This document shows positions 2,706-6,145 of a stretch of 64,000 nt of DNA, in pieces. How positions within the stretch are numbered: position 1 is the stretch's first letter; every line of letters begins with the position of its first letter. The notes under the pieces are model-generated. The model searched no databases. It was not told the DNA's origin and worked only from the letters and a program-made list of their open reading frames with translations. Position numbers and translations under genes: made by a program. The stretch is from Bradyrhizobium sp. DOA9. GTDB lineage: Bacteria > Pseudomonadota > Alphaproteobacteria > Rhizobiales > Xanthobacteraceae. The stretch is from positions 6,144,741-6,208,740 of the forward strand of contig NZ_DF820425.1 in assembly GCF_000617845.2 (NCBI RefSeq), read 5' to 3'.

Positions 2706-3506
2706 TCAGTAGAACCGGTGGAAATGATGGATCGGCCCGTGGCCGTGGCCGACGCTGAAGCGGTCGGCGGCGGCGATCGCGGCGCTGATCCAGGCCTTGG
2801 CGTTGCGCACGGCAGCCTCGAGATCCTCGCCCCTGGCCAGCCCCGCCGCGATGGCGGAGGACAACGAGCAGCCGGTGCCATGGGTGTTGCGGGTGGCCAC
2901 GCGCGGGGCGGCGAGCGCGATCGTGGTCTCGGCAGTGACGAGATAATCGATGCTCTCGGCACCCTCCCCGTGCCCGCCCTTGATCAGGACGGCGCGGCAG
3001 CCCAGCGCCAGCAGGCGGCGCCCCTGGCTTTCGATCTCGGCCTCGCTCGCGGCCACCGGCGCATCGAGCAGGGCCGCAGCCTCCGGCAGGTTCGGCGTGA
3101 TCACGGCAGCGAGCCGCATCAATCTGGTGCGCAGGGCATCGACGGCCTCCGTGGCGAGCAGGCGGTCGCCGGACGTCGCCACCATGACGGGGTCGAGCAC
3201 GACGTGCCGCGGCGCCCAGCGCGACAGCGCGGCCGCGATGGCGTCGATGCTGGCGGCCTGGGCCACCATGCCGATCTTCACCGCACCGATGTCGAGGTCG
3301 GAGAACACCGCGTCGATCTGCTCGGTGACGAACCCGGCCGGAACCGCGTGAATGCCGGTCACCCCGCGCGTGTTCTGCGCCGTCAGCGCCGTGATCGCGG
3401 AGGCGCCGTAGACGCCGAGCGCGGCAAAGGTCTTCAGGTCGGCCTGGATGCCGGCGCCGCCGCTCGAATCGGAACCGGCGATGGTGAGCGCGACCGGGGT
3501 CGTCAT
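2706..3506 (-). CDS. thiD: Hydroxymethylpyrimidine/phosphomethylpyrimidine kinase
   Basis: A 266-residue ribokinase-fold enzyme of thiamine synthesis that phosphorylates HMP and HMP-phosphate to HMP-pyrophosphate. The N-terminus [20 protein letters not shown] is the classic ThiD substrate and P-loop signature. [17 protein letters not shown] near the C-terminus is the anion hole with the catalytic region. The start is taken at the ATG at 3504-3506 because the protein then begins directly at the family signature. An in-frame extension upstream to 3647 would add a sequence of no recognisable domain. It stands alone, with no other thi genes around it, and is divergent from the histidine kinase at 3824. 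Confidence 0.93.
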
Positions 3507-3823
3507 CGCGGGATACACGTGCTCGAGGAGGCCGCCATGGCCTGTCCTAGCGCGACCGTGGAACGCCGGCAAGCGCGCCGGGACGCCGTCAAGCGTGATT
3601 CGGAAATCGATTGCACCTCGCGAATCAGTCCGACACAGCGCGGCCAAGGGCCCCGCAATGATGCGGGCTTGAAAATGCAGCGGCGCCGGACCCTTGCTAT
3701 AGTCGCGTACCTTAGCGTGCTTCGCCGGCTACGCGAGACGTCAGGTGGTGGAACCGTCCGGTGACCCGATGTTGCGGGCCGATCCGGTCCGCAAGCCATC
3801 TGAAAGACTCCTGGGGTGGAACG
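3507..3823. promoter_or_regulatory. Divergent intergenic region between thiD and the histidine kinase
   Basis: No convincing gene is present in these 317 bases. A small GC hairpin (CCCGCA, ATGA, TGCGGG) lies near 3653-3668. TATAGT at 3698-3703 could serve as a -10 box for the rightward kinase gene, but no well-spaced -35 was found. The promoter call is therefore weak. Confidence 0.3.
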
Positions 3824-5800
3824 ATGTGGGCCTTCTTCGAACGTCTCCTCGACTCGTCCATGCTCTCGCCGCACGGCATCTGCCTGTTGTGGGAGCCTCA
3901 GCTGATCTGGCTTCACGTCGTTTCCGACGCCTGCATCGCCGCCGCCTATTTCTCGATCCCGTTCGTCCTCGCCATCCTCGTCACCAAGCGGCGCGACCTC
4001 AAGTTCGGCTGGGTCTACTGGGCATTCGCGATCTTCATCATGGCCTGCGGCCTGACCCACGTGCTGTCGATCTACACGCTCTGGGTTCCGATCTATGGCA
4101 TCGAGGGCATGGTCAAGGCCGCGACCGCGGTGGCATCGGTGTTCACGGCAGGCGCGCTCTGGCCGCTGCTGCCGAAGATCCTGACGATCCCCTCGCCGTT
4201 CGAGCTGCGACAGGTCCAGGCCGCGCTCGAGGAGGAGGAAATCAAGAGCCGCGACGCAGCGCTGCTGCTGCAGCAGGTCCGCGACGCCCAACGCGCGATG
4301 CGCGAAAGCGTGGCGCGCCTCACCGCGATCGTCGAGACCGCGGTCGACGGCGTCATCCTGTTCGACGCGCAGGACCGCATCCTGCTGTTCAATCCGGCCT
4401 GCGAGCGCCTGTTCGGCTATCAGGCCGATGAGGTCATGGGCTGGGACGTCAGCATGCTGATGCCGGAGGCTGACGCTTCGTCCGACAGCGCCACGCGGCA
4501 TTTCGCGACCGGCGGCGAATCCGTCGGCCTGCGCAAGGACGGCACGACGTTCGCGATGGACCTGTCGGTCGGCCAGGCCCGGCAGGACGGCGAATTGATC
4601 TTCGTCGGCATCGTCCACGACCTCACCGCGCGCAAGCTGACCGAGCAGCAGCTCCAGCAGGCGCAGAAGATGGAGACGGTCGGCCAGCTCTCCGGCGGCA
4701 TCGCGCACGATTTCAACAATCTGCTGACCGTCATCATCGGCAATGCCGAGCACCTCAGCGAGCAGCTCAAGGCGAGGCCGGACCTCAGGCGCTTTGCCGA
4801 GGACATCTGCCAATCGGGCGAACGGGGCGCCGAGCTGACGCAGCGCCTGCTCGCCTTCAGCCGCCGCCAATTGCTGCAGCCTCGGACGATCGATTGCCGG
4901 AGCCTGCTCGATTCCATGTTCAAGCTGCTCAAGCGCACCTTGCGCGAAGACATCGAGATCAGGACGACCTCGGGGCCCGGCACGATCCTGGCGTTTGCCG
5001 ACCGCGCCCAGCTCGAATCCGCGGTGCTGAACCTCGCGCTCAACGCGCAGGATGCCATGCCGTCGGGAGGCCACCTCACCCTGGCCACGGAGCTGGTCAC
5101 GATCGACGATGATCGCGCCTTTCACCCGGAAGTCGCACCCGGCAGCTACGTCTTGATCGCGGTCACCGATGACGGCGAAGGCATGACGCCCGAGATCACC
5201 GCACGCGCGTTCGAGCCGTTCTTCACCACCAAGGAGGTCGGCAAGGGTTCGGGCCTCGGCCTCAGCATGGTCTATGGCTTTGCCAAGCAATCAGGCGGCC
5301 ACGTCTCGATCTACAGCGAGGCCGGCCTTGGGACCACGGTCAGGATCTACCTGCCGCGCGCGAACACCGGCCGGTCGCAGGCCGATCCTTCCGACGGCGA
5401 GGACAGCGCGCCGCGTGGCTACGAGACGATCCTGATCGTCGAGGACGATCCGTTCGTCCGCTCCTCCGTCATTCGCAGGGTGGAAGCGCTCGGATATCGC
5501 GTCGTCGCCGCGGTCAACGGCAAGGATGCCCTGCAGCAACTGCAGGGCGATCCCGGCATCAACTTGCTGTTCACCGATATCGTGATGCCGGGCGGCTTGA
5601 GCGGCTGGGAGCTCGCCGATCAGGCGCGGCGGCTGCGTCCCGGCCTGCCGGTTCTGTTCACCTCGGGCTACGCGCTGGAGACCCTGGTCGAGCAGGGACG
5701 CGCGCAGGCGGAAGCGTTCGTGCTGACCAAGCCCTATCGCAAGATCGAGCTCGCCCAACGGCTCAGGGATGCTCTGGCCGCGGCGGCCGTCTCATCCTGA
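3824..5800 (+). CDS. Hybrid histidine kinase with ETR1-type ethylene-binding membrane domain
   Basis: A 658-residue protein. Residues about 28-120 form three membrane helices closely resembling the plant ethylene receptor ETR1. D35, Y42, I45, P46, I72, C75 and H79 match the seven ETR1 residues D25, Y32, I35, P36, I62, C65 and H69, all with the same +10 offset. C75 and H79 (CGLTH) correspond to the copper ligands. A PAS domain follows (about 165-280), then HisKA with H295 (GGIAHDFNN), HATPase_c (NLALNAQDAMP, DDGEGM, GSGLGLSMVYG) and a C-terminal receiver with D585 (FTDIVMP). The ATG at 3824 is chosen over the in-frame ATG at 3761 because GGGGTGG precedes it and the ETR1-like domain starts right after. 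No separate response regulator is adjacent. The ligand is inferred. Confidence 0.9.
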   Translation: MWAFFERLLDSSMLSPHGICLLWEPQLIWLHVVSDACIAAAYFSIPFVLAILVTKRRDLKFGWVYWAFAIFIMACGLTHVLSIYTLWVPIYGIEGMVKAATAVASVFTAGALWPLLPKILTIPSPFELRQVQAALEEEEIKSRDAALLLQQVRDAQRAMRESVARLTAIVETAVDGVILFDAQDRILLFNPACERLFGYQADEVMGWDVSMLMPEADASSDSATRHFATGGESVGLRKDGTTFAMDLSVGQARQDGELIFVGIVHDLTARKLTEQQLQQAQKMETVGQLSGGIAHDFNNLLTVIIGNAEHLSEQLKARPDLRRFAEDICQSGERGAELTQRLLAFSRRQLLQPRTIDCRSLLDSMFKLLKRTLREDIEIRTTSGPGTILAFADRAQLESAVLNLALNAQDAMPSGGHLTLATELVTIDDDRAFHPEVAPGSYVLIAVTDDGEGMTPEITARAFEPFFTTKEVGKGSGLGLSMVYGFAKQSGGHVSIYSEAGLGTTVRIYLPRANTGRSQADPSDGEDSAPRGYETILIVEDDPFVRSSVIRRVEALGYRVVAAVNGKDALQQLQGDPGINLLFTDIVMPGGLSGWELADQARRLRPGLPVLFTSGYALETLVEQGRAQAEAFVLTKPYRKIELAQRLRDALAAAAVSS

Positions 5801-5899: not shown

Positions 5900-6145
5900 A
5901 TGGTTCCTTTCTTCGTCCAGATCAAATGCAAGCTCGGCCAGTCCTACACGGTGGCCAATGCGCTTGCCGAAGCCGAGATCGCCTCCGAGATCTATTCCAC
6001 GGCCGGCCAATACGACCTCCTGGTGAAGTTCTACGTCGACAAGGACACCGACATCGGCCACTTCGTGAACGAGAAGGTGCAGGTGCTGCCGGGCATCCAG
6101 GACACCCTCACCATCATCACCTTCAAGGCGTTCGGTACGGGCTAA
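5900..6145 (+). CDS. Stand-alone Lrp/AsnC ligand-binding (RAM) domain protein
   Basis: An 81-residue protein beginning MVPFFVQIKCKLGQSYTVA. It consists only of the beta-alpha-beta-beta-alpha-beta RAM fold that binds amino acids at the oligomer interface in Lrp/AsnC regulators, and it lacks the helix-turn-helix. Such single-domain forms assemble into rings and are thought to sense amino acids or modulate full-length Lrp proteins. The ATG at 5900 is preferred to the GTG at 5891 because GGAG at 5888-5891 is well placed for it. It reads alone, downstream of the histidine kinase with a 99-base gap. Its partner is not visible here. Confidence 0.85.
   Translation: MVPFFVQIKCKLGQSYTVANALAEAEIASEIYSTAGQYDLLVKFYVDKDTDIGHFVNEKVQVLPGIQDTLTIITFKAFGTG

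Follow-up and report, generated by a model that had tools for sequence, protein, structure and literature searches.

We have identified a hybrid sensor histidine kinase of Bradyrhizobium sp. DOA9 that, judging by its sequence, is probably a bacterial, Cu(I)-dependent ethylene receptor akin to ETR1, SynEtr1 and AzoEtr1, signalling by a hybrid-kinase phosphorelay. The gene lies in a 64,000-nucleotide stretch of contig NZ_DF820425.1, hereafter the window. Ethylene controls legume nodulation and root microbiomes. The presence in a nodule-forming Bradyrhizobium of a sensor kinase built like the plant receptor and AzoEtr1 allows for direct tests of ethylene sensing. With the receptor well conserved in an important inoculant genus, ethylene perception by rhizobia is open to simple knockouts, and natural controls exist in sister strains with an empty site and in relatives that lack the copper His. 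The protein belongs to a known bacterial receptor family and is not new in kind. Ethylene-binding domains in proteobacteria have already been published (PMC11819568, PMC7700396). By the account given in PMC11819568, one protein with such a domain has been functionally proven among plant-associated proteobacteria, and direct proof of an ethylene-binding receptor affecting physiology was counted among bacteria only for Synechocystis, to which Azospirillum brasilense was then added. Searches of open-access papers, judged mostly by title and abstract opening, gave no report of a Bradyrhizobium ethylene receptor and no binding data for any Bradyrhizobium homologue.

The features of the locus are listed in Table 1. 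The start codon of the 658-residue open reading frame is consistent with a gapless alignment, from residue 1, to a protein of A. brasilense Sp7. Pfam places ETR1_N (PF25487) at residues 27-121 (E = 5.3e-37), PAS at 165-266, HisKA at 287-349, HATPase_c at 393-513 and Response_reg at 536-647; all of the PAS, kinase and receiver domains that a sequence-only reading had placed downstream of the sensor were found. The ETR1_N profile scored 126.4 bits for the full protein (126-131 bits across scans) against a curated cut-off of 27, and this is the single ETR1_N match in the window's own genome. Neither H295 nor D585 varies in any of the 51 orthologues aligned, a set that includes the window's own protein. 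HisKA and HATPase_c with a receiver and these conserved phospho-acceptors indicate an output of the histidine kinase type.

Table 1. Features of the receptor locus, in window coordinates
Feature	Position	Strand	Basis
Hybrid sensor histidine kinase, ETR1_N-PAS-HisKA-HATPase_c-REC; ATG start, 658 aa	3824..5800	+	ORF and Pfam
ETR1-type transmembrane ethylene-binding domain (putative), residues 17-124	3872..4195	+	Pfam, AlphaFold2, orthologue identity
Codons D35, Y42, I45, P46 (= AtETR1 D25, Y32, I35, P36)	3926..3961	+	Translation, alignments
Codons I72, C75, H79 (= AtETR1 I62, C65, H69)	4037..4060	+	Translation, alignments
Predicted long signalling helix, residues 125-154	4196..4285	+	AlphaFold2 model
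PAS domain, FixL-like, without the FixL haem-bearing segment	4316..4621	+	Pfam and PDB sequence alignment
HisKA, phospho-acceptor H295 at 4706-4708	4682..4870	+	Pfam and orthologue alignment
HATPase_c	5000..5362	+	Pfam
Receiver domain, phospho-acceptor D585 at 5576-5578	5429..5764	+	Pfam and orthologue alignment
thiD-like gene, divergent, upstream; left flank of conserved site	2706..3647	-	Translation read by eye; start uncertain
Small Lrp/AsnC ligand-binding-domain-like gene, downstream; right flank of site	5900..6145	+	Translation read by eye

A full-length query of the plasmid collection returned 3,336 records; of the 15 listed, 14 match from residue 140 on only, in the kinase half. A sensor-only query returned 19 records. 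Among NCBIfam models, the best match was the PRK13557 histidine kinase subfamily, which covers residues 169-654 only and, at 426.1 bits, falls below its cut-off of 631. The CckA equivalog (338.8 bits against 1000) and FixL (134.9 bits against 850) also fall below theirs.

Seven ethylene-pocket residues had been claimed from the sequence, and D35, Y42, I45, P46, I72, C75 and H79 all stand at the claimed positions of the translation. The partner of Y42 in Arabidopsis ETR1 (AtETR1) is presumably Y32. The proposed constant offset of ten also fits D25, I35, P36, I62, C65 and H69 of AtETR1 (PMC6586836). In the plant protein, C65 and H69 have been linked to Cu(I) binding, and H69 and P36 are among the residues listed as essential for ethylene binding (PMC6586836). 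All seven residues are invariant in the 51 aligned orthologues, the window counted. Across 24 diverse homologues, whose alignment rows were picked from the fetched loci, no row departs from Y42, P46, C75 or H79, and D35, I45 and I72 are almost invariant. Since only 87 of 126 profile-aligned family rows keep the exact seven along with F71, while 39 differ somewhere, an ETR1_N match by itself proves little and should not be equated with an ethylene receptor.

A chance or compositional artefact was rejected on the ETR1_N score and a pattern scan. The pattern D-x6-Y-x2-IP-x(20-30)-I-x2-C-x3-H was run in six frames over the window and 80 named loci, which are the best 80 of 248 relatives. It matched exactly once in each of these 81 sequences (1,371,303 six-frame residues); 80 of the matches carry the receptor's SIP letters, and the remaining one (L179) is plainly the receptor. 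Because all 81 sequences were chosen for holding the receptor, this control speaks for receptor surroundings only, and the Pfam E-value is the stronger argument against chance. The sequence-only reading had also named MHYT or another sensor family as a possible source of the same residues. None turned up when the isolated sensor domain was searched against Pfam at a maximum E of 10, where HMMER filters discard most matches above about 0.1; beyond ETR1_N the search gave just COX7C and VIT1 (E = 2.8 each), both weak and unrelated.

No part of the protein is more constrained than the membrane sensor, and the PAS domain is the least conserved. Mean pairwise identity among 50 syntenic orthologues and the window is highest in the sensor domain (0.921), followed by the kinase (0.887), the receiver (0.875) and PAS (0.798), and residues 17-124 show 92.6% mean identity to the window over the 50 orthologues. 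An AlphaFold2 model, computed as a monomer without metal from a 68-row alignment (mean pLDDT 89), has helices at residues 25-55, 62-87 and 91-112 in addition to the long helix in Table 1. The model predicts an N-terminal bundle of three transmembrane helices, as ETR1-type receptors need. A hydropathy scan (19-residue window, cut 1.6) supported the first two transmembrane helices, with the third below the cut. Foldseek found no match in the PDB to the predicted model at E <= 0.001 among the 206 listed at E <= 10. For the sensor, a PDB sequence search gave no related structure; two unrelated chains appeared at E 1.6.

Residues 1-124 of the window's protein share 51% identity, without gaps, with the A. 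brasilense Sp7 protein. The corresponding open reading frame in the plasmid collection, unannotated in its record, encodes 525 residues with an overlapping receiver gene downstream and matches the published AzoEtr1 by strain, length and gene order. Residues 1-130 of AzoEtr1 bound 14C-ethylene in Pichia yeast (PMC11819568). A quick tree puts the window's receptor and AzoEtr1 within one 63-row fork (support 97). This tree, with SH-aLRT support only, holds 118 of 183 rows, as rows shorter than 350 residues and all but 22 of the 80 named loci were left out. Some genes are repeated among the tree and 126-row sets (L001/L058/window, L047/L057, L042/L076). The proposal of an ethylene-receptor-type sensor is upheld by the ETR1_N profile, the seven residues, the identity to the Sp7 protein and the constraint on the sensor domain.

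The two proteins also share their layout, in that AzoEtr1 has the seven residues in an N-terminal sensor that is followed by PAS and a histidine kinase (PMC11819568). AzoEtr1 differs in having no receiver of its own but a separate, overlapping receiver gene, whereas the window protein is a hybrid. The window locus has no receiver gene directly adjacent, and its next downstream gene is Lrp-like, unlike that of AzoEtr1. SynEtr1 of Synechocystis and GeiEtr1/2 of Geitlerinema, compared by description, are likewise bacterial receptors with all seven residues (PMC6682694, PMC11819568), although SynEtr1 also senses light and is bifunctional (PMC11819568). A Pseudanabaena homologue shares 51% of the sensor domain with the window protein. 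Arabidopsis ETR1, compared by residue numbers and the Pfam profile, resembles the window protein in the seven residues at an offset of ten, three transmembrane helices, and a kinase and receiver (PMC6586836). It differs in carrying GAF where the window protein has PAS, and plant signalling goes through CTR1 (PMC7700396).

The PAS domain has its closest PDB sequence match in FixL (E = 1.4e-20), a similarity that could be taken to mean a FixL-kind oxygen/haem sensor in which the ETR1 domain is a mere membrane anchor. We consider this highly improbable. The alignment has gaps across the FixL haem-bearing segment, leaving the haem His (which we take to be His200) without a partner and making an oxygen-haem role unlikely; the sensor input differs from that of FixL, and the ETR1 domain is better conserved than PAS. 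A haem-PAS oxygen sensor was rejected as the main function, given that the haem segment is absent.

Among the best 80 of 248 relatives, the best named match to the sensor domain is 97% identical. Seventy-seven of the 80 named loci are titled Bradyrhizobium, and the rest Bradyrhizobiaceae, Tardiphaga and 'Frankia'. The last, L159 (Frankia sp. RB7), carries the Bradyrhizobium receptor, 90% identical in the sensor domain, together with its gene order, so that its record name or assembly looks wrong. B. yuanmingense is the nearest named row to the window in the quick tree. Genes are arranged thiD(-), receptor(+), Lrp-like(+) in 50 of the 80 named loci; in one of these, L155, the Lrp-like gene sits about 2 kb farther along. 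In the remaining 30, the receptor is found without these neighbours in two (L174, L175) and beyond the Lrp-like gene in L178, and the other 27 are different intact receptors without thiD or Lrp-like neighbours. These 27 form at least two clades where sampled, and neither of the two among them that were scanned (L050, L031) has PAS. The empty site was sought in 26 of the 82 genus members that lack a high-scoring match (20 of 58 without any match and 6 of 24 low-scoring). In all 26 (L208-L233), the thiD-like and Lrp-like genes adjoin, with less than 0.5 kb between the matched parts. The conserved order and the empty sites identify the receptor as a presence/absence gene at a fixed chromosomal site.

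Of 195 genomes sampled in the genus, 137 have ETR1_N, and 115 of these have a single match. In the order sample the count is 42 of 297 (37 over cut-off), in the class sample 28 of 385, and in the phylum sample 29 of 398 (28 over cut-off); the samples overlap in some genomes. When matches with a best E < 1e-30 are called high-scoring and the rest low-scoring, the genus divides into 113 genomes with a high-scoring match, 24 with low-scoring matches only and 58 with none. Residues were read for fetched loci, a set that leaves out, for example, G070, G083 and G094.

The earlier suggestion of a link to nodulation was not supported. In the window's genome the receptor is on contig 1 and NodA (E = 1.5e-95) on contig 2, where a weak, split second NodA-like match was also seen (364575-364984); an ACC deaminase lies on contig 1. 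This nodA and ACC deaminase imply that the genome meets plant ethylene and can modulate it, as a symbiosis-specific sensor of host ethylene during nodulation would presuppose. Such a sensor is nevertheless improbable, as the gene is chromosomal, on the main contig, in a neighbourhood whose order is constant in 50 of the 80 named loci. Across 195 genomes of the genus, 64 have both a high-scoring ETR1_N and nodA, 49 ETR1_N only, 44 nodA only and 38 neither (odds ratio 1.13, Fisher p = 0.77, a statistic that ignores relatedness). Of the 113 genomes with a high-scoring ETR1_N, then, 49 have no nodA, and of the 108 with nodA, 44 have no high-scoring ETR1_N. NodA was counted at E < 1e-30, which gave 108 of 195 genomes after 16 weak matches (E > 1e-7) were dropped from 124. 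ACC deaminase exceeds the cut-off in 171 of 195 genomes, and being near universal in the genus its co-occurrence is uninformative. A symbiosis-island gene was likewise rejected, with nodA on another contig, a chromosomal site and no nodA association. The receptor would better fit an accessory chromosomal Bradyrhizobium gene for general soil or root ethylene sensing than one for nodulation in particular.

Some Bradyrhizobium relatives have an altered pocket. Residues were read in 15 low-scoring rows of the genus (14 genes), and all but one of these rows (14 rows, 13 genes) carry DF[IT]A[AV]CR, here named the R type (L032-L036, L038-L044, L076, L077). The sole exception, L037, reads DYIPICH, as does the window receptor. 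Its genome, G130, has five ETR1_N matches, L037 among them; one of the five lies on a 229-residue frame with intact residues. In the R type the copper His is replaced by Arg, Pro by Ala and Tyr by Phe, while Cys and Asp are kept. R-type kinases have the Pfam domain, the genus and the region of the tree in common with the window receptor, and the four scanned (L032, L036, L040, L043) also share HisKA-HATPase-REC but have no PAS. In the tree all 13 R-type rows (12 genes) group together with support 100. An intact clade of eight rows is their neighbour (joint support 99), and the two adjoin the window's clade (support 98), so that descent from intact receptors is the simplest origin for the R type. 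Of the 14 R-type rows, 13 retain the kinase His and receiver Asp, the other being a 185-residue frame (L044). Identity in the R-type sensor domain is relaxed, at 0.707 versus 0.875 in the kinase (12 genes), and this relaxation in relatives without His and Pro supports the ethylene-receptor reading of the window protein. Given that H69 and P36 are essential for binding in AtETR1 (PMC6586836), R types should not bind ethylene.

We tentatively suggest a split repertoire in the genus, in which constrained copper/ethylene hybrid receptors coexist with a derived clade, changed from His to Arg and from Pro to Ala with kinase and receiver sites kept, that may have turned to another ligand or become a ligand-independent partner. 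If this is true, ethylene sensing in the genus would be a general trait of soil life, subject to gain, loss and rewiring, and not a tool for nodulation. Outside the genus, Cys or other binding residues are missing in L109, L075, L072, L103, L124 and L106. The sequences of such scattered homologues suggest repeated loss of the ethylene site.

Just before the first transmembrane helix lies a PHGxC motif (window 3872-3883). Its H17 and C20 are invariant in 68 chosen alignment rows, five R-type rows included. Three of the 14 R-type rows deviate, at one position each, and distant rows such as L078 and L109 miss part of the motif. The H17/C20 pair is a possible metal-loading or disulfide site.

In the proposed mechanism, Cu(I) would be held in the dimer by each second transmembrane helix through C75 and H79, and the copper would bind ethylene. 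Helix movement would then pass by way of the long helix to PAS and alter autophosphorylation of H295, from which phosphate would move to D585 and then, by way of a histidine phosphotransferase, reach a response regulator whose gene lies elsewhere. An ETR1-fold sensor occupied by copper could instead respond to copper, to redox state or to some other small olefin or gas as its real input, with ethylene binding weak or incidental. The metal ligands are conserved as well as the rest of the pocket, the H17/C20 pair could load metal, and SynEtr1 responds to both ethylene and light (PMC11819568). We regard such an input as unlikely, however, since conservation extends beyond Cys and His to all seven residues, and direct ethylene binding has been shown for the closest homologue tested (PMC11819568).
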